Positions 20,098 through 56,792 of a stretch of DNA of 64,000 bases are shown piece by piece. Each line of letters opens with the position of its first letter. The first letter of the stretch is position 1. Source of the stretch: Spirochaetaceae bacterium (GTDB lineage Bacteria > Spirochaetota > Spirochaetia > Treponematales > Treponemataceae); the NCBI GenBank assembly GCA_017936665.1, contig JAGBFB010000018.1:124001-188000 (forward strand), in the 5' to 3' direction. The notes beneath the pieces are model-generated. The model was not told the origin of the DNA. It ran no database searches and was given only the letters and a program-made list of their open reading frames with translations. Both the position numbers and the translations under genes were made by a program.

Positions 20098-23000
20098 TTA
20101 AAATACATTTACACGTAAACCAGCACTAACCTGTGGTACAACAGATGGAATTTTTTCTGTTGCATTTTCAGGTATTTCAACGTCTGTTGGAATAAACCAC
20201 AACTGGAACTCTGTGTACACAGAGAATGTTCTAAACATCTTCTGTTTTGGAATTGTAATTCTTGGGAATTCTAATTGTCCTAAAACAGCAGACAAGAACT
20301 GAGCCTTTCCACTTTGAGTTTCTGAGAATCTTGAGAAGTTTGCACCAAGAGTAACATTGGCACTTAACCATTCCCAGTCAGGTCCTAAGAAATATCTAAA
20401 TGGAATATAAGCAACGTTTGCCAAAAGTTTTGCACCAACAACATTTCCTCCGTAGCGGAATTTTGTTACTTCTGCACCACTCCAATTACAAAGCATTTCA
20501 TATTGACTTTGTGTCATTTGTCCAAACTGTGCCTGTAATTTTACGTTGTCATCAAAGAATGTTAATCCTAGACCAACATCAAACATAGTTGCACCTAAGA
20601 AGTGCCAGTCAAAATACAATCCTTGAATAAAACTTGGAACTTCATAAGAAGATTTATCTCCACTTCGCAAGGTAACCTTAACATTCTTAAGATTAATATT
20701 ATCAGAAGTAAGACCTGCAAATTCCAAAGTTTCATTGAATGCACCACCTGGAACAGGAGCAATAAGTTTAATATCTGGAGAATCTTTATCAATTTGAACA
20801 ATACATCTTGTTACTGCGGATTCACCGTTTTTCATAACTGCTCTAACAATTAAGAAGTGATAACCAGCAGGCATATCTTCATTTTCAACACGATAACGCC
20901 ATTTTTTTGTATTTCCTAATGGAATGAAAGTTTTACCGTTATCAAAACTGAGTTCTACATAACTTACTTCTTTTCTTTCAAGGCGTTCTTTTTCTTCTTT
21001 TGGAGTTTTCTTATCTCTTAAAGCAAGAATTTCAGATTCGGTGAAAGCATATCCACAACTTCCTTCGATGTATGGTCGTTCAAATGCAAAATCACCGTAT
21101 GTAAAATTGTCTATTGTTATCCATGGACCTTGAGGTTGATAAATGATATATGCTTCATTTGAAGAAATAATTTTATCTCCTAAAAGACCTCTAACTTGCA
21201 ATGTATGAGAACCAGAGGATAAATTTGTTGGAGAAAGCGTATATTTGAAATATCCTGTAGGAGACACTTCTGTAACAGCTATTTCTTGTCCATCTACGTA
21301 AAGAACGATTGTTTCAAAAGGTTGTTCTGTAACAACTGTTCCATACAAGTTGAACATACCTTGCAAATATTCACCATTCAATGGAGTAAGAATGTCAATT
21401 TTTGCTCCATCACTTTCTTTACTTAACTCAACATTTCTAGAAACACGAGTTACATTTCCACCAGCATCTTCACCGATAAGCTCGATGTTATAGAAACCAT
21501 CTGCCAAACCTGACAAATCAATTGTTTTGGTAATAATTTCTTCTGGAACAAATTCCATTTCTGCCAGTTCTGGAGGTACAGCCTTTTGTCTAAGTTCAAG
21601 ATTACTAATTTTAGCTTTTAAACTCTTTAAACCGATGTTGTCAGTAGTCTGTCCTGAGAAAAAGAGCATTTTTGTAGTTTTTGAACCGTCTATTGGTAAT
21701 TCAAGGTTAATTTCTGGAGCAGTATTATCTACGTTTATCAAACTTGAATAGATACCTTGAATATTGTATCCGTCCCAAACTTTAATAAAGATAGCATGAG
21801 TTCCGTCTTCAAGAACACGAGTATCAAATTCATAAGACCATTTTTCTGTTCCAGCAACTTCATTGAAAGTTACACCGTTATCTACAGAAACTTGAACTTT
21901 AGAAATACCGTTTTTATCACTTGCCCAACCAGAAACTAAAACCATTCCGTTTACAGTTTCATTGATATCTGGAAGTTCAACAGCACCTTTTGGTTCTTCA
22001 AGAGAAATTCTAAATGGTCTAACTACAGTTTTACTTCTGATTCCGTAAATATCCTCTGCATAAACTGTAACTGTGTGTTCATTATCTGTCATAGATTTTA
22101 ATGGAATTGGAATAGAGAAACTTGAACCATATCCTTCCACTTCAATAAAATCAGAATCATCTATTTTGTAATAGATTTTTGATTCACCGTCATCATCAAT
22201 TACAACACCTGAAATCAAAAAGTCATTTTGAATAATTTCGTTATCAGAAGGAACATGAATTTCTGGAACAGGTAAATCTGATTCTAAGTCAACAACAAAT
22301 TCCCATTCTTTAAATTCTAGTTTATTTCCAGCTTTATCTGTAAAAGTAAATTGCATATCTTGTGCTAATGGACAATTTTTATTTCCAACAAAAGTTGAAA
22401 TATAATGTTGCATTGGTAATTCCACATCACCTTCTTGTCCATTATAGAAAATTTGAGATGCCTTACCATTATCGGTTACTTCTAAAACCATTAAAGTTTC
22501 ACCGTTAATTCTATCTTCTGGGCATGGCACTAATACATTTACAGTTGGAGTACTTATATCTTTGAAAACAACAATTCTTTCTGTGTGAGTTTTTCCTGTT
22601 CTATCAGAAACTCTTACATCAATTGGAATTGGACCTTCTGAAACTTCTGCAAAATCAAGAGGAATATCAAAATCTACAGAACCAACATCTGAAACATCAA
22701 ATTTTGTCCAAGTTGCCCCATTATCCACAGAATATTCGCTTTGTAAAATTCCAACAGAATCTTTTACACTTCCCTTTAATTGAACTAAATTTTGAACATA
22801 AGAATAATTTGCAGGAGAAGCAATTTGCACAACAGGAGTATCAGAATCTACTATTACAGAAATTGGTTCTGATGTATAAGAAATTCCTTCTTTATCGTGT
22901 GCAACAACAACTACATTTTCGTAAATACCAGGTGTTTTTCCTGTGATAACAAGATTTTTATCTTGCACACTTAGTTCAAGCCCCGGAATATCCTCTAAGA

Positions 23001-26000
23001 AAAGTGCTTTTATAGGAGTTTTTAAGTTTGCGTATCCTGACAAATTTTCATTTACTCCTATGCAAACATAACCTTGTTGATTTTTTGCGTAATTATTCCA
23101 ATATATTTTTTCTTTATCTTCGATGAGAGAAGCATCTCTTTTACGAATTACAGTTACTGTACCAGCAGTTCCTGTAAAGTTACCATCATTTGTTTCTACT
23201 TTGATAGTAACTCTTGTCTGTTCGGCAGGGAATCCTGATAATGAAAGAGAAACTTGATAAGTGTCAGCACCTACAGTTCGTACTTCAGGAACTTTTCGTT
23301 CTTCACTTCCTGCAAAAGAATAATAAACATTTGTAACAGGCAAATCAGACTTAATTGAAACTGCCAAACTAGGAGCAACTTCAGTTGAACCAGGCCCTGG
23401 AACTATTACTTCCATACCTGACGTATATGGAACATCGTTCACAGATTGAAGATAAATATCCAATTTTCCAGACTTACTAAATGTATGAGAAGCTTTATGA
23501 TCTTTACCATTAATATCTTTTACAGAAATTTCAAGAGAGTTTTTACCAGGAGCCATCTTTTCTGGAGGAATCATTCCAACCATAACATTATCACATTCAG
23601 ATAAAACAGAAGTTCCAAGTTTAACATAATTTAAAGTTGCTGTTTCACTATAAGAAACTGTGTAATAGCAATACTTTCCATCAAGCCAACCAATTGAAGG
23701 AGGTGGAAGAGATACTTTCTTTCCATCTTCACCAGGAACTGGTACAGGTGGAACTTTATCAATGTAAATAGATTTAAAATTATCTTGGTTTTGAGAGTCA
23801 ACAGCTCTAAATTCAACTACAGAAACTCCATCAGCAAAAGTACTTGATGGAAGAGAAGCAGTAAATTCATTAGTACGAACATCGTAACGAATACGTTTCC
23901 AACTTCCGTTTCCGTCTTTATGTAAAACACGATATGAAACTGATTTAACTGCTAAATCCGCAGCAGGAGTAATTTTCCCTTTAATAGTAATTGTTTCACG
24001 ACCGTTTAAAATTCCTTCTTTATCCAAATCTATTATTGGAACAGGAATTTTTGTTTTTAAGTGAAGGTTTCTTGACTCATACTCAATACCTTTATCAGTT
24101 GTAACAATAACACGCACAGAATCAGAAACACCAACTGCATCTTTATTTGGAACAATTCTGATTACGTTACCTTCAAGTTTTACATCAGCAAATGTTGTAG
24201 GAGGAGTAAATCTTACTTGGGCAGCCTTTCCTCCCATAAAGAAACCAGTAACAATTTGAGGAGCAGCCATATCAATAAAACCGTCTTGAGCAACAGTATT
24301 ATCAGAGAAAACAACTTCTGGCTCACCACGAGTAATAGTAAGGTTTGTTATATAAACATAAGCAGACTTTTCTACTTTTCTATCGTGAATATCTGTAGCA
24401 ACTAATTTTAATTCAGAAAATCCCCACTTACAGTTATTTACAGGAACACTAATTGTGCTTACCCCTGTTTTAGAAAGAGTATCTATAGAAACTTCGCCCA
24501 TTCCTGAAAACTGATAAGTTACATTTTTCAAACCACTTTCAGAATTAATGTCAAAGTGAAGTTCAGCCCCAGATTCAGGATTTAATTCAATTCCAGGAAC
24601 ATAATCTACAGTAGTATCTTCTTTTGCACCTTTGTACACAGAAATTTTATCAAATGAAGGAACCTTTCCAGGAACATTAAAATTAATTACTGTTGGAGTT
24701 CCGTTTAATCCGTGAATATCTTTAGCATAAATTGTTACAGTGTGATTTCCTAAAGACAACGATGGAATATTTTTAGAAATATTCTCGTAGAAAGCACCAT
24801 CTGTTGTAATTTTATATTCTTGACCACCGTCTACATTCCAATAAACACTATCAACACCATCATCATCTGTTGCATAACCACGAATATAAACATCATCAAA
24901 GAAAGATTGAGATTGAACAGGAGTTTCCAAACTGATTGTTGCTAAATCTGTAAGAGGATCAACTAAAATTTTTTGTTTTTTAGTTGTGATATTTCCCATA
25001 ACATCAACAGCAGTAATAATCAACTCTTGAGATTTTCCTAAAACAGAAGTTGCGTCAAGTTCCAAAGACCAATAAGGATTTCCTCTTAACAGTTCAAAAT
25101 TCCCTGTTTCTTGACCAAATTGCCATGAAAGAGATTCAAGACCAATTACATCCTTTGCATAACCTGCAACAGTGAATTTTCCATTAACAACATCTTTTGG
25201 AGCTGGAGAAATAATTTTTACATCAGGAGAAGTATTATCTACGAAGAATAAGAATGAAAATAATCCTCTTGTACCTTGTTTATCGTAGGCTCTAAACCAT
25301 AAAACAACCCCACCGTCAGGTAGATCTTTTGTATTTATAGGAACAGTAAAAGTACAACTTGTTCCAGTTTTGTCTGCTTTGATTTTTGCTTTTTTATAAG
25401 TTTCCCTTCCATCAAGAGAATATTCGAGACTAGCAATTCCGTTTCCATCAGAAACAGTACCAGTAATTTTTATTTTTTTTGCAACTAAATCACCCATTTG
25501 ATGACTTTCAATTACAGTTTGAGGTTGTCGTCTATCAAGGTGCCAAGTAGCAGATGTTTCATGACCAACTTTTCCATTTATATCTACACCATATACACTA
25601 ATTGTATGAGCACCTTCTTCCATCTGTGTTGTATCTAAATAAAAAGACCAGAAATCTTTACCTGTTGCAGTTAAAGGATTTTCTTTATCACCATCAAGAA
25701 TGATTTCAACTCTTTCTACAGCGTCATCATCAATACAAGTTCCTACAATATTGAGGTTTCCTGGAACACGCATATTGTTACGAGGGTTTGTAATTCCACT
25801 AATAGGAAGATCTGATTCTGGGTCAATATATATATTGTGAGGACCTTCTATTGTAGTATTTCCACCTTGATCCTCTGCGGTAATCATAACATTATACTTA
25901 CCAGGTTTTTTCGTTGAGATATCAAAATTTTCTTTCCAACTCTCTTTATTTTCTACATCTTTTTCTTCTATCTCTTTTTTTGCAAATGCAGATGTAAAAG

Positions 26001-26043
26001 ATAAAACCAAAACCAATAAGAAACAAAGTACTTTTTTCGCCAT
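20098..26043 (-). CDS. Exported Ig-like repeat protein with C-terminal outer-membrane barrel-like segment (1981 aa)
   Basis: ATG at 26043 is chosen over the in-frame GTG at 26052 because GGTGGAG sits 5 nt before the ATG and overlaps the GTG. The protein starts with a classical signal peptide (MAKKVLCFLLVLVL, cleavage likely after SAFA). Residues about 30-1780 are roughly 16-17 Ig-like domains of the same family as the two downstream giants (IDPESDLP, VDNTSPDVKI, DKAGN motifs). The last 190 residues or so have no Ig signature; they alternate hydrophobic and polar residues, contain many aromatics (GLYFDWHFLGATMFDVGLGL) and end in GLRVNVF. A terminal phenylalanine is typical of outer-membrane barrels inserted by the BAM machinery. 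It is the first gene of the three-gene operon and may be its outer-membrane anchor. That role is inference. Confidence 0.9.
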   Translation of the reverse strand: MAKKVLCFLLVLVLSFTSAFAKKEIEEKDVENKESWKENFDISTKKPGKYNVMITAEDQGGNTTIEGPHNIYIDPESDLPISGITNPRNNMRVPGNLNIVGTCIDDDAVERVEIILDGDKENPLTATGKDFWSFYLDTTQMEEGAHTISVYGVDINGKVGHETSATWHLDRRQPQTVIESHQMGDLVAKKIKITGTVSDGNGIASLEYSLDGRETYKKAKIKADKTGTSCTFTVPINTKDLPDGGVVLWFRAYDKQGTRGLFSFLFFVDNTSPDVKIISPAPKDVVNGKFTVAGYAKDVIGLESLSWQFGQETGNFELLRGNPYWSLELDATSVLGKSQELIITAVDVMGNITTKKQKILVDPLTDLATISLETPVQSQSFFDDVYIRGYATDDDGVDSVYWNVDGGQEYKITTDGAFYENISKNIPSLSLGNHTVTIYAKDIHGLNGTPTVINFNVPGKVPSFDKISVYKGAKEDTTVDYVPGIELNPESGAELHFDINSESGLKNVTYQFSGMGEVSIDTLSKTGVSTISVPVNNCKWGFSELKLVATDIHDRKVEKSAYVYITNLTITRGEPEVVFSDNTVAQDGFIDMAAPQIVTGFFMGGKAAQVRFTPPTTFADVKLEGNVIRIVPNKDAVGVSDSVRVIVTTDKGIEYESRNLHLKTKIPVPIIDLDKEGILNGRETITIKGKITPAADLAVKSVSYRVLHKDGNGSWKRIRYDVRTNEFTASLPSSTFADGVSVVEFRAVDSQNQDNFKSIYIDKVPPVPVPGEDGKKVSLPPPSIGWLDGKYCYYTVSYSETATLNYVKLGTSVLSECDNVMVGMIPPEKMAPGKNSLEISVKDINGKDHKASHTFSKSGKLDIYLQSVNDVPYTSGMEVIVPGPGSTEVAPSLAVSIKSDLPVTNVYYSFAGSEERKVPEVRTVGADTYQVSLSLSGFPAEQTRVTIKVETNDGNFTGTAGTVTVIRKRDASLIEDKEKIYWNNYAKNQQGYVCIGVNENLSGYANLKTPIKALFLEDIPGLELSVQDKNLVITGKTPGIYENVVVVAHDKEGISYTSEPISVIVDSDTPVVQIASPANYSYVQNLVQLKGSVKDSVGILQSEYSVDNGATWTKFDVSDVGSVDFDIPLDFAEVSEGPIPIDVRVSDRTGKTHTERIVVFKDISTPTVNVLVPCPEDRINGETLMVLEVTDNGKASQIFYNGQEGDVELPMQHYISTFVGNKNCPLAQDMQFTFTDKAGNKLEFKEWEFVVDLESDLPVPEIHVPSDNEIIQNDFLISGVVIDDDGESKIYYKIDDSDFIEVEGYGSSFSIPIPLKSMTDNEHTVTVYAEDIYGIRSKTVVRPFRISLEEPKGAVELPDINETVNGMVLVSGWASDKNGISKVQVSVDNGVTFNEVAGTEKWSYEFDTRVLEDGTHAIFIKVWDGYNIQGIYSSLINVDNTAPEINLELPIDGSKTTKMLFFSGQTTDNIGLKSLKAKISNLELRQKAVPPELAEMEFVPEEIITKTIDLSGLADGFYNIELIGEDAGGNVTRVSRNVELSKESDGAKIDILTPLNGEYLQGMFNLYGTVVTEQPFETIVLYVDGQEIAVTEVSPTGYFKYTLSPTNLSSGSHTLQVRGLLGDKIISSNEAYIIYQPQGPWITIDNFTYGDFAFERPYIEGSCGYAFTESEILALRDKKTPKEEKERLERKEVSYVELSFDNGKTFIPLGNTKKWRYRVENEDMPAGYHFLIVRAVMKNGESAVTRCIVQIDKDSPDIKLIAPVPGGAFNETLEFAGLTSDNINLKNVKVTLRSGDKSSYEVPSFIQGLYFDWHFLGATMFDVGLGLTFFDDNVKLQAQFGQMTQSQYEMLCNWSGAEVTKFRYGGNVVGAKLLANVAYIPFRYFLGPDWEWLSANVTLGANFSRFSETQSGKAQFLSAVLGQLEFPRITIPKQKMFRTFSVYTEFQLWFIPTDVEIPENATEKIPSVVPQVSAGLRVNVF

Positions 26044-26078
26044 TTTCTCCACCTTAGACCTCTCCCCCGATTATATCT

Positions 26079-49709: not shown

Positions 49710-49764
49710 AAAATTTACCGATAATAAAACATAGATGTTTAAATTTTCCTTTGGAGGATTTTTT

Positions 49765-51195
49765 GTGAAAAAGATTATTTTATCAGTTTTACTTTTTGGT
49801 TTTTCTTTGTTGATATTATCTTGTCTAAATGGATTTACTTCTGGAGAGGATGAACCTGTTACATCAGTAACAATAGAAGCACCAGATTTCTATATTTCTA
49901 GTTATAGTGGAACAAGTATGAATGCAGAAACAATGAAACTTTATTATTCGTATGCAGTTCCTCCTGAAGGCAAAGACCCAACAACCCTTCTTGATATTCG
50001 ACCTATGATTTACGGAGTACCTAATACAGAAGAAACTTTTTCCAATATAGTTGTTTCTACAACAAAAGAATATACAGAAATAGAAAAAACTGGAATAGAC
50101 ACTTCCATTTGGGATTTTTGGGTGGATTCAAAAGATAATTGGAAATTTGAAGCTAACGCAAATTACAATGTAAGTTTTGAAGCAAAATCTTCTGTGGCAG
50201 ATTCTATCGTACTTGTAGAATTAAAAGATAGTACCAAAACATTACGAGGTGCAAATATCTGTCCAAAACTTACAGAAGAATATCAAACATTTTCTTTTGA
50301 AACAGGATCCTATGATAGAGAATGGAATGGACATTTACAAATAGCCCTAGGATTTTTTGAAGGAATAATATCTATAAAAAATCTTAAAATTGAAAAAATC
50401 GAAGGAACATCTTTGCCTTACGGAATTCATTTAGGAAGTAAAGATGATAAAATCTCAACTGAAAAAATTGAAAATGGAGTAACTTTTTCTTTTGAAACAT
50501 TAAATCCAGATACTATTCCAAATTCTAGTTGGCCTATTATCAATACTGGATTTGCAATAGAAGATAACAAACTTTATGAAGTAACTTTCAATGCAAGTGC
50601 AAATGAAAAAGATGTTACTTTGAATATTGGCGCATATTCTATCGACAGCAAATATTCTCATTCTTGGAAAGTTGTAAATATCGGAACAAAGCCAATTCCT
50701 GTAAAAATGTATGTTCCAGGTGCTGTAAAAAATGATGAAAAATACAGATTTTTAGATATCGATTTTAATACAGCTAAAAATAATTCAATAACAATTACTG
50801 ATGTTAAAGTTGCTGAAGTTACTGAAATGCCTCAAGATATAGACTTGTTTGTAAAAATAAATGATAAATTCGGGGAAATTACAAAAGAAACACCTTACAC
50901 CATCGCACAAATTCCATCTGGTGGAAGTTTTACTTTTGACATGGCTTTTTCAAAAATAAACTCCACAGAAATTAATTGGGAAAATTTTAGTAGGATTAGT
51001 GAATTTTCTAATAATTGTAAATTTCCAGAATCTTTAGATATTTTAAATGAAATTGAATCTTCTGCTGAAGTTAAAAGAACTTTTACAAACAACACAACAG
51101 AAGAAAAATATTACAAAATTTCACTTGATTCAAATTGGAAGATTATTTTAGAAGAAACAGAATTTTCTGTAATTGACGGAAGTACAACTCCATAA
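49765..51195 (+). CDS. Lipoprotein with carbohydrate-binding-like modules
   Basis: GTG at 49765 is preferred to the upstream in-frame ATG at 49735 because GGAGGA lies 6 nt before it and the protein then begins directly with a lipoprotein signal (KKIILSVLLFGFSLLILSC, C20). About 476 residues. Two beta-sandwich modules at about 75-215 and 225-360 resemble CBM4/9-type carbohydrate-binding domains (NYNVSFEAKSS...IISIKNLKIE; LYEVTFNASANEKDVTLNIG). A third domain follows at about 365-470. The same three-part order occurs in the G-tract lipoprotein at 52497, so they are paralogous over about 370 residues. No catalytic residues were seen. A glycan-binding surface role is inferred. Confidence 0.85.
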   Translation: MKKIILSVLLFGFSLLILSCLNGFTSGEDEPVTSVTIEAPDFYISSYSGTSMNAETMKLYYSYAVPPEGKDPTTLLDIRPMIYGVPNTEETFSNIVVSTTKEYTEIEKTGIDTSIWDFWVDSKDNWKFEANANYNVSFEAKSSVADSIVLVELKDSTKTLRGANICPKLTEEYQTFSFETGSYDREWNGHLQIALGFFEGIISIKNLKIEKIEGTSLPYGIHLGSKDDKISTEKIENGVTFSFETLNPDTIPNSSWPIINTGFAIEDNKLYEVTFNASANEKDVTLNIGAYSIDSKYSHSWKVVNIGTKPIPVKMYVPGAVKNDEKYRFLDIDFNTAKNNSITITDVKVAEVTEMPQDIDLFVKINDKFGEITKETPYTIAQIPSGGSFTFDMAFSKINSTEINWENFSRISEFSNNCKFPESLDILNEIESSAEVKRTFTNNTTEEKYYKISLDSNWKIILEETEFSVIDGSTTP

Positions 51196-52411: not shown

Positions 52412-52460
52412 AAAAAACTCCCAAGGTTCGATAAAAATTTCAAACCTCGAGAGTTATCTT
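52412..52460 (-). terminator. Terminator after the G-tract lipoprotein gene
   Basis: AACTC and AGGTT (52416-52427) pair with AACCT and GAGTT (52443-52455) around a 3x3 internal loop. T runs follow on both strands (TTTTTTAT on minus, CTTTTTTTA on plus). Its place, about 40 nt past the stop at 52497, fits the minus-strand lipoprotein gene. Confidence 0.7.
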
Positions 52461-52496: not shown

Positions 52497-55400
52497 TTAT
52501 ACTTCTTCTACTTTTAAAGTAACTGTTCCTTCTTGTGAACAAGTAACTGTAATTTTATATGTTGTATCAACAACAAAACCTGTCACTTTAATATCATTTC
52601 CTTGCACAGCATCAATTAAAACCGCATCACCTCCAATTATAGGCTGATTAGCTGGATCTGCGATACCATAAGAAGTACCATCCCATGAACCAGCAGAAGT
52701 TCTCAATTTGAAAGCACATGTTCCAGATTGACTTCCCCAACCATTCATATAATCTTGATAAGTAAAAGTTGTAGTATAAACACCATTATCTTCATAGATT
52801 AAATTAAGTGTAACAGTTTCATCATAAACATAAGTTCCTGCATCAGTTTCACTTGCTGTAACAGAAAAATCACCAATTATATCGCCATTTGCAAAAAGTA
52901 AAAGATTATCTTGCCATTTAGCATATACTGTACACTCTGAATCTACTGAAGATATAAAATCATCTCCATTTTCTGTAAGAGTCCAACCAACAAAAGTGTA
53001 ACCTTCTTTTTCTGGTTTTACTGCCAATAAATTACTAACATCTAATGTTACATTTGAAGAACTTCCGTTAAAAGTACCATCATTTAAATCAAATGTTACA
53101 GAATAAGTAGGCAATTCTTCTACAATAATTCGATAATCATGATAAATCCACAACTTAAATTCTCGATCAATAACAGTATTATTTGTTATTACAGATCTAC
53201 CATCTTTATTTGTTGAAATATCTAAAATTTCAGAACCTGTAACATAACGTAATTCTACAACATTTGACCAATCGTGATCAAAATTTTCTGCACCAATTTG
53301 AGCAAAAATTTCATAAGATTCACCAGCAGGAATAGTTATATCCTGTCCAGAACCTAGATAACCCATAAATTGATTCCAATAATCGTTTTCACCTTGTAAT
53401 GCAAATAACACATCGGGTTTTTCTTCTGATCCTACAATTTCAACTGTAAAGTTTGAAATTGTAATTGTTGATATAGCTGAACTACTAAAACCGATGTCCA
53501 TAAAATCATATTCAGTAGAATTATCAGTTCCTACATGGGGAACATATAAACTAAAATTTGTTGGTGTTGAAGAGATTTCCTGATGGTTCCAAGATTTTGA
53601 AAATTTTTCTTGAGATGCCCTTGCAACAAAATTTAAATTTGTAGTTTCTGTAGCACTTGCATCAAAAGTAATTTTATATAAATTACCTAATTCTGCCTTT
53701 TGCCCAGAAATTTTTATCCATTCAGATGTATCTCTAATTTCTACAGTAAATCCATTTTCTGTCCTATTTGAAATAACAGAATTGTTATATTCTGTAACAG
53801 GAAGAAGATTTGTATTAACTCCTTCAACTTTTAAATTACGAAGATAAACAACATCTGTAGTTCCAACATAAACTATAAATTGAGCAAGCCAATCGCCTTG
53901 CCAAGATCCTGCTTCAAATTCAATTGTTTGCCATTCTGTATTGATGGTCTTTTTTACTTGAACATGAGATTCAGTTCTAAGATAATCTGCTAATCTAAAA
54001 ATAACATCTTTTTCAGAATCAGATTTTACTTCAACAGAAACTTTGTAGTTTTGATTTGCAGACATTTCAAATTCTTCTGTTGCTGTAACATAATAATCCC
54101 ATTCAGAATTTGCTGTTTCAGCATTTGGATTTTCAATCATAACTTCTGTATCAAACTTTGTAACTGTAACTGATGAATCAGAAGAAATAAAATTTGTTTC
54201 GTCGATTACAGTAGTTGGCCAAAATTCATCTATTTTTGAAAAATCTACATCGTAGGCTCTATAGAAATAACAATTATTCAATCTAAACGAATTATCTAAA
54301 ATTTCAAATGACTCTGAATCGTCCAATGTAACGATATTTCCCGAAACAGTATAGGTTAAATCAGAAGTTTCAATTTCTCCATCTGCAACTTGAAACGCAG
54401 TTCCATTACTAGCCTGTACGAATAAAAGAGTCTCTGAATAAGTAACCCAAACACCTGCTAAAGAATCATTTTCTACATTTTCATCTACACGAGAAAAATT
54501 TGTATCTTCGTAGTTTATAGTTCCATCTTCATTTATTTCTAAATCATAAGTTACAGAACCGTCAGTAATAGTTGCTACATCACCTGAATATGAATATGGC
54601 ATAATACCATCAAGTTCACCAGCATAGAAAGTCATTGTATCATCTGAAAAAATCAGATACCAAATAGAAGAATCTTCAAAAGATGCATACCAAGTTCCTT
54701 TAAATTGATTTACATTAGAAACGTTTGGAATCCATTTTGCATATACAGTTAAATTATTTTCTGTAACTGTGTATGGGAAAGTCATTAGATTATTAAATTC
54801 AGAATCAGTGTACCAACCAGCAAAAGTATAATCTGTTCCTTCGTAAATTAGTGTAGGGAAAGTTTCGATTTGTGATCCAATATCTACATACATATACATT
54901 GAATCCCAATTTTCTAGTTTTCCACGTTCTGATTCAAAGTAAATCAAACTTTGCTTTTGGCCAAGATTTTTTCCAGAATAGGTTTTATTTGAATCAAATT
55001 CTTCAAGTTTTACATTAGAAAGCTGAATGTATTCAATCCCATCAGTTAATTCCATATCTTTTGTCCAGAAACAAAGACCAAACATATTATTTACTTCTGT
55101 TTCTGGTACATCAAAAATTATATAATAATCTCCACTTCCTGTTAAATCTGAATATGAGCCAATATCTTTTTCCGTAGTTCCGTTGCGTAAATTTATACAA
55201 CCAGTTAAATTTTTATCATCTGTAAAAGAGAATACATATTTTCCTGCTTGTTTAATTTCTTTTTCATATCCAAATTGAAGTTTCCAGTTATTAAAGGATT
55301 CTTCTCTTCTTTCGATAGATCGTTGAACTTTTATAGAATCTTCAGACATATCTTGTAATACAATCCAGTTAGCAGGATAGGTTCTACAGGAGGAATCACT

Positions 55401-56685
55401 CCAAATGCTCCATTGTGGGAAATCTGCTTTCTTTTCCCAAACACCATTTTTTTCAATCCACATAGGAGTGATATAACAATCTTTAATGTAGGTATCACCT
55501 TGATTTAATCTAAATTGAAATTCAATCTCTTCATTTAAATCTTCTGAAGTTAAATAAAATTGATATGTGTATTTTTTATATTCTGTAGTAAGATCAATTG
55601 TAGGAGATAATAACTCTAACTCATCATCATAATTTCTAATACAAAGTGTTTGAGTTCTTTCTGTATCAGCTTTTGCCCAGAAAGAAATAATGTATGCTGT
55701 AGAACTATTAAATCTACGAGAAAACATCATAGAATGTTTCCAGTTTGCATCTAGAGTAGAACCTACAGTTCCAACAGCCTCCGAACCTGAATTTTCAAGT
55801 TCTACATTTTCTGTTCCTGTTTGTTCTTTTTGGTAATCATAAACTTTCCAGTTTAGTGCAACAGTTGTAGGTTTTGTAACACCTTCAGATACTGTAATTT
55901 TTTCTTCTTCAACAACAGTTCCTTTTTCAGTAGCAACAACTTCTAGTTTTACATCGCTAGATTCAACATGAATTGTTGCAGTTTCGTTAGTTGTTTCATT
56001 TTTTACTTCTGCAATAATTTGATCTACAGAAGTATTTCCTTTTAAAGTGATTTTTTCTACGGATTTATCAATAAGAATTTCGCCAAAGTCGGCTGTAGAA
56101 TCTTCTGTGTTTTCAATTTCTGAATCAAGAGTACAGTTTGTAGAAATAACTGCACTTTCAACTTTTGCAGCTTTTCCATCATCTGCTTTTAAAACAATAC
56201 GAACATTTTCTTTTGCAACTTGAAGATTTTTTATAGTGGTTGCAGCAATATGAATTGAATTTGCACCACCGCCTCTAACATAAAGACTTTGAACTTCATA
56301 ACAATTTGAAATTTCAAAATCTCCATCTCTAATTTCTTCATCAGCTAAAACGCTTTCAACATTTCTTAAATTTTCAAAAACAACCCTGTCACTTTTTACA
56401 ACAAAGGTTGCATTTTTTAAATTACCATCACAAATTGTTATAGGTTTATCAATTGTGTAAGAATCAGAATCTTTAATTTCAAGATCTTCTTTTCCAAGAT
56501 TAATAACATCACCACTAGGAGCAGAATTAATTCTTTCTTTTAGTGTTTTAGATTGTCCCCCCCCCCGTGATAGGATTTTCATTGTTTGGAGGAGTTACAG
56601 GATTATCACCTGGTTTTTCTCCACAAGCTGCTAGTATAAATAACATACTCAACACAGCAATCACAGATAACAAGATTTTTTTCAT
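52497..56685 (-). CDS. Phase-variable large lipoprotein, out of frame at a G10 tract
   Basis: The true start is ATG 56685 with AGGGAGA upstream. It encodes a textbook lipoprotein signal (LFILAAC, C21) and a Pro/Asn linker, then runs into ten G residues (plus-strand C at 56557-56566). With 10 G the frame stops after 45 codons (TGGGTI-stop). With 9 or 12 G it continues into the 1361-codon frame to 52497, giving about 1395 residues. The internal ATG at 56582 has no ribosome binding site or signal peptide. Approximate domains of the full form: beta-helix-like 45-270, two sandwich modules 275-585, an InlB-type repeat 585-660, a lipocalin-like part 670-800, a block shared with the 49765 lipoprotein 830-1195, a second InlB-type repeat, and a C-terminal starch-binding-like domain. 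Likely a switchable surface glycan-binding protein; an assembly error in the tract is possible. Confidence 0.88.
56557..56566 (-). repeat. Homopolymeric G10 tract (phase-variation switch)
   Basis: Ten consecutive C on the plus strand, ten G on the coding strand, 40 codons after the start of the lipoprotein gene. I noticed no other G/C run of comparable length in this AT-rich window. Slipped-strand changes of one base would move the gene between on (9 or 12) and off (10, 11). Confidence 0.9.
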
Positions 56686-56792
56686 CTTTATCTTCTCCCT
56701 TTAGTAGTTTATATTTTCCTATTTGAAAAACATTAATTAATTTTATCATACAAAGTAATAAAAATCTATATTAACTCAGTTATCCACATAAT

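Follow-up and report, generated by a model that had tools for sequence, protein, structure and literature searches.

Does a lipoprotein signal peptide separated from its protein body by a run of ten G mark a broken gene, a sequencing slip, or a surface gene caught in its OFF state? We consider it likely, with a probability of roughly 0.75, that the G10 tract acts as a phase switch at the coding level and forms one element of a genome-wide set of coding and promoter G tracts. Because the genome holds 35 other long G-runs, 20 of them in near-identical promoters of other lipoprotein genes, the cell is probably able to turn much of its coat of lipoproteins on and off stochastically.

Reading frames and modules of the focal gene

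The G10 homopolymer lies on the minus strand at positions 56557-56566 of the window, the 64-kb stretch of DNA analyzed here (C7:124001-188000), with its length taken from one assembly. A sequence scan of the window found no other G/C run of 8 or more, the second longest being 5. The first-pass annotation, which placed this tract between signal and body, is confirmed. By chance, runs of exactly 10 are expected only ~0.003 times in the window, and GGGGGGGG gave three overlapping matches, against 0.02 expected in shuffles. As assembled, the minus-strand frame opened by the ATG at 56685 reads MKKILLSVIAVLSMLFILAACGEKPGDNPVTPPNNENPITGGGTI and then stops, giving 45 residues (56548-56685, including the stop codon TAA) that run from a lipoprotein signal through a Pro/Asn-rich tether and the G tract to the stop. 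By translation, the signal peptide extends from this ATG to the codon of lipobox Cys21 (LAAC; 56623-56685, minus strand); the basic n-region, hydrophobic stretch and lipobox Cys21 of a signal peptidase II substrate are all present in MKKILLSVIAVLSMLFILAAC, and an RBS-like AGGGAGAAG lies ~8 bp upstream of the ATG.

The body, on the same strand, has its first ATG at 56582 and its stop at 52497, and comprises 1361 codons from that ATG and 1365 from stop to stop. The earlier frame arithmetic, by which 9 or 12 G would give one continuous lipoprotein and 10 G the short peptide, is right, because the body is one frame off the signal and both frames cross the same tract. The tract sits in the Gly/Pro-rich tether directly behind the lipid anchor, a pure repeat beyond chance within a coding sequence, and changes in its length predict ON and OFF by frame. 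We propose that replication slippage adds Gs to the tract or removes them, so that at some lengths signal peptide and body would share one frame and yield a large, lipid-anchored, glycan-binding-type lipoprotein, and at the assembled length of 10 G only the 45-residue anchor peptide would be produced (OFF). A search of the sequence upstream of the ATG at 56685 revealed no convincing promoter and none with a G tract; a possible TTAATA-18-TATGAT (56745-56774, minus strand), also free of a G tract, belongs to a class of matches no more numerous than chance. The focal switch would be translational, and a promoter tract of the tp0126/porA type is absent from the focal gene. On the 3' side, an intrinsic terminator-like hairpin follows at 52416-52455 (minus strand; one found, 0.0 expected).

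Family and fold matches support the glycan-binding-like and InlB-type modules that had been assigned to the body from the sequence. Its N-terminal module (residues 10-198; 55989-56555, minus strand, as are all modules here) is predicted to be all-beta and solenoid-like (single-sequence AF2, mean pLDDT 65), and a fold search with it gave no significant match, only weak pectate-lyase-type hits. Two Listeria-Bacteroides repeats follow, the first, of InlB B-type, at residues 583-620 (54723-54836; TIGR02543, 9.6e-13 for the whole protein) and the second at residues 1160-1222 (52917-53105; PF09479, 3.5e-17 for the whole protein). Between them, residues 780-1062 (53397-54245) are modeled as a tandem beta-sandwich region resembling CBM4/CBM22 and surface glycan-binding proteins, matched by Foldseek to surface glycan-binding protein B of B. 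thetaiotaomicron (1.8e-8) and to a CBM22 tandem (6.8e-8); because the pLDDT of this model is 61, only the fold class is safe. The fold resembles the tandem CBM/SGBP beta-sandwiches of SGBP-B and SusG CBM58 in Bacteroidetes, although the comparison, from a low-confidence model at ~10% identity, is by fold and not by SusC/D context. The family match to SusG_CBM58 (PF20756) is marginal (1.8e-5, 25.3 bits against a 24-bit cutoff), and a sequence search of the PDB with the body returned no match. The same region recurs (BLASTP 4e-29) in a 486-aa lipoprotein at 49735-51195 on the plus strand, which has no G tract and is paralogous to the focal body across 356 residues at 28% identity. With its tandem CBM4/22-like domains, the body looks glycan-binding.

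The first-pass annotation also called the product a surface lipoprotein. Signal and lipobox bear out the lipoprotein part; many spirochete lipoproteins are periplasmic, and we infer the outer-surface location by analogy, from glycan-binding and starch-active relatives only. Elsewhere in the window (1-20077, minus strand), two adjoining giant lipoprotein genes share a leader (TCDPGLGKAVDTQAPKV) and encode 3019 aa and >3644 aa, the latter continuing beyond the window; a 1984-aa protein of outer-membrane type (20098-26052) adjoins them.

Long G tracts across the genome

The assembly from which the window derives (2.58 Mb in 43 contigs, 31% GC, with three FlaA genes that mark a spirochete) contains 36 G/C runs of at least 7; outside the window, the analysis drew on pattern searches and on the stretches that bear tracts. 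One has length 7, 12 have length 8, 20 have length 9 and three have length 10, with none longer, against first-order expectations of 18, 3.2, 0.6 and 0.1, respectively. The peak at 8-9 together with the depletion of 7 suggests that these tracts are kept at a switchable length and are not random runs; the maximum of 10 could be partly an assembly effect. Lipoprotein genes account for 28 of the 36 tracts. Of all 36, 20 lie in one type of promoter (class A), seven lie inside six lipoprotein genes (class B), and nine are others (class C). General poly-G richness was rejected as an explanation, as the overall G9 count is unremarkable within the family; the shared promoter is therefore the unusual feature. 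Slipped-strand on/off control, first suggested from the focal tract, has good indirect support in this genome-wide pattern, and slippage probably occurs in living populations.

Further coding tracts would gate starch-active and modular lipoproteins. In four of the six class B genes the tract comes soon behind the anchor: the focal gene, out of frame as assembled, and a type-I pullulanase (L014), an alpha-amylase with CBM26 (L016) and an InlB-repeat protein (L021), all three in frame (ON) at G9. In the remaining two, L073 (with two tracts) and L076, the tracts come further on, at junctions between modules, and the genes are out of frame. L073:1697-7815 (C1) is a modular lipoprotein of beta-rich, solenoid-like and FGE-sulfatase parts with G9 at two domain junctions, all out of frame, such that tract length could set the number of C-terminal modules displayed; at one module junction of this gene, the frame is lost where there is no pure tract. 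Among relatives of the pullulanase, a G/C run of at least 7 occurred in only two of 20 loci, neither demonstrably a homologous signal-proximal tract.

These sister genes bear on two other accounts of the frame break. In the first, an assembly or sequencing error conceals a true tract length that differs from 10 in nearly all cells, and the gene is intact, coding for a lipoprotein whose Gly linker is stable. There is one draft assembly, in 43 contigs, and since the three other lipoproteins with signal-proximal tracts are in frame at G9, a single miscalled base would suffice. Yet the A/T runs of 8-9 in the long genes of the window leave the long ORFs intact and without obvious frame breaks, the tracts of L073 and L076 are out of frame too, and a pure tract of such length is expected to be unstable even if one base was called wrongly. 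We regard an error as unlikely. In the second account, the gene was inactivated by slippage and is now being lost as a decaying pseudogene, which would agree with the frame broken as assembled, with the tract-free break in L073, and with a search for orthologues of the body that yielded none, either in the genus (three genomes, two of them incomplete) or in GTDB r220 (84,980 species). Against such decay, the body is open for 1365 codons at 31% GC despite the frame break, its domains are still recognizable, and sister genes of the same layout are in frame; we judge it highly improbable. The open body supports the phase switch, and frame-broken lipoproteins in genomes of this kind should not be annotated as pseudogenes.

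The company of the focal gene also bears on its role. An antigen or adhesin, as proposed earlier, is one option among others: given a pullulanase and an alpha-amylase with a switch of this type, a role in capturing glycans is as likely as one in adhesion or antigenicity, and the switching is at least as likely to serve bet-hedging on glycans as to vary antigens. Its role may be to diversify glycan foraging and surface exposure at random.

Five of the class C tracts are coding or probably coding (two in a zinc-ribbon/SHOCT protein, one in an HDOD protein, and those of L078 and L079), and four are intergenic, one of these directly upstream of another lipoprotein gene. In the small zinc-ribbon/SHOCT-like gene, the frame is apparently broken by both tracts, of 8 and 9 G (L019:6912 and L019:7093; C22:24912 and 25093). 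A G8 (L079:7924; C22:83923) precedes a gene for a DNA cytosine methyltransferase by ~110 bp, making phase-variable methylation possible. A G9 at L019:2083 (C22:20083) falls in the likely 5'UTR of another lipoprotein and, being closely 5' of CCCC, could form a hairpin.

A promoter shared by 20 lipoprotein genes

The 20 class A tracts share the motif CCTA[C/G]-TTGAC-[N]-G7-10-8/9 bases-TANNNT, in which TG often precedes the -10, and come from the loci L010-L026 and L066-L077, plus the sites C11:35714 and C18:127453. Each tract begins at the last base of the -35 and occupies half of the spacer, and therefore sets the distance between -35 and -10, which is 16 in 14 promoters, 15 in four and 17 in two. 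These are homopolymers between -35 and -10 at near-optimal spacing, the arrangement of tp0126 and porA. The number of Gs and the length of the trailing sequence are negatively correlated (r -0.61, permutation p 0.008), compensating as if the constraint were on the length of the spacer. About 20 further genes for lipoproteins would be switched at transcription, through a G tract that fills the spacer of their shared promoter, with slippage altering the -35/-10 distance as in tp0126 and porA. The sequence CCTA[C/G]TTGAC occurs 14 times in the genome, 13 times with a tract. A TTGACGGGGG site with five Gs (C18:76785) was excluded from the set, since it lies inside an ORF. Elsewhere, a G9 that lies 77 bp ahead of a GH3-like 568-aa protein (L015:8389; C8:52388) is preceded by CCTAGT, which it shares with the lipoprotein promoters, and lacks TGAC.

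All 20 genes, which begin 35-120 bp downstream of the promoters, encode exported proteins with a lipobox-like Cys, the L075 case (OmpA-domain) being atypical. A strict automatic lipoprotein test accepted 18 of the 20, against three of 19 window genes (Fisher 3e-6), the genome-wide lipoprotein fraction being estimated from the 64-kb window only. Other TTGAC/-10 pairs in the tract-bearing loci served as a control and gave 5 of 11, in a sample that is small and skewed to lipoprotein neighborhoods. In their mature parts, most of the encoded proteins are unrelated to one another (lipocalin-like, CotH, TRL, FGE-sulfatase with InlB repeats, DUF6567, OmpA), apart from one small paralogous family of five.

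Two tandem lipoprotein genes in the set (L017:7892 and L017:8419; C18:102892 and 103419) have promoter, 5'UTR and signal-peptide DNA in common. They are identical for ~185 bp except for a single substitution, in coding sequence, and a single G, with 8G in one and 9G in the other; their mature parts diverge (61% identical overall), and the pair looks as if a promoter-plus-leader cassette had been copied. As we read the two copies, the 8G/9G difference is a natural length change inside the genome, at a promoter tract rather than at the focal tract. The pair also bears on a third account, in which the DNA stays unchanged and the 10G allele yields full-length protein at a low, constant level, either because RNA polymerase slips at the G tract or because ribosomes shift frame there. 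Long homopolymers can indeed cause transcriptional slippage, as is generally known, but this would leave unexplained both the 8G/9G difference and the 20 tracts in promoter spacers, which lie outside the transcript, and we give it the least credence of the accounts considered.

For a broader picture we see about even odds: one amplified promoter cassette (CCTA[C/G]TTGAC-Gn with an extended -10) may have spread within a single spirochete species to ~20 lipoprotein genes that are dispersed and mostly unrelated, and at least once the 5'UTR and signal peptide were apparently copied along with it. Together with the coding tracts of the pullulanase, the alpha-amylase and the focal gene, it would make the lipoprotein coat and starch/glycan foraging a combinatorial set, switched stochastically.

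Comparable systems and relatives

Phase variation by poly-G is a known mechanism, and the scale and the shared promoter appear new. Mycoplasma hyorhinis Vlp comprises a lipoprotein family in which each gene has a homopolymer between the -35 and -10 of a conserved promoter and is the closest functional analogue of the promoter set. Vlp involves poly-A and a few clustered genes of one protein family, in contrast to the poly-G, ~20 dispersed genes and unrelated mature proteins here. To our knowledge, poly-G phase variation in treponemes has been treated almost exclusively as a way for the syphilis agent, an organism that is hard to manipulate, to evade immunity. In the openly accessible literature, we found neither a shared G-tract lipoprotein promoter set nor phase-variable starch-active lipoproteins in spirochetes. 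The present genome offers a countable set, 20 shared G-tract promoters plus coding switches on starch enzymes in a spirochete, and opens to G counting in metagenomic reads the questions of how spacer length relates to spirochete promoter strength and whether phase variation serves as nutrient bet-hedging outside pathogenesis.

In T. pallidum, where poly-G tracts vary between 7 and 11 G within isolates, tp0126 and tprE/G/J/L are likewise spirochete surface-protein genes with promoter tracts of 7-11 G, and the tp0126 tract, like those of the 20 promoters here, is located between -35 and -10 (PMC7864442). Their products are outer-membrane proteins whereas ours are lipoproteins, the ~20 promoters here have one common upstream motif and a tract starting at the last -35 base, and the focal gene carries a coding rather than a promoter tract. 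The poly-G spacer promoter of N. meningitidis porA is described in the same source (PMC7864442). In Neisseria meningitidis porA and NalP/MspA-type systems, a G/C tract in spacer or coding sequence likewise switches a surface protein (PMC3639595, PMC3723659); the proteins are unrelated to those found here, and no motif-sharing promoter family is known there. Slippage at an intragenic G tract also controls a surface structure in a gut commensal, the sortase pilus of Bifidobacterium breve, which differs in being Gram-positive and in having pili and a coding tract only (PMC9187656).

Among relatives, TTGACGGGGGGG (TTGAC-G7) has 18 sites in this genome versus 0-3 in each of 244 other family genomes, and the full motif with 7G has two unrelated matches among 84,980 species, a set outside which near-identical genomes may fall. 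The esterase gene that neighbors the focal gene is absent from the two congeners (incomplete genomes), which therefore provide no syntenic allele for comparison. One lipoprotein promoter of congener G002 (L128) has a G9 adjoining its -10. In the present genome, a G10 at L018:540-549 (C22, contig end) likewise adjoins the -10, lying between TTGACA and CATAAT in a spacer of 19, upstream of a Cys/Gly/Asn-rich peptide with a leader of double-glycine type (LMQVNGG). These two tracts suggest that G tracts in promoter spacers may predate the CCTA[C/G]TTGAC-Gn cassette.
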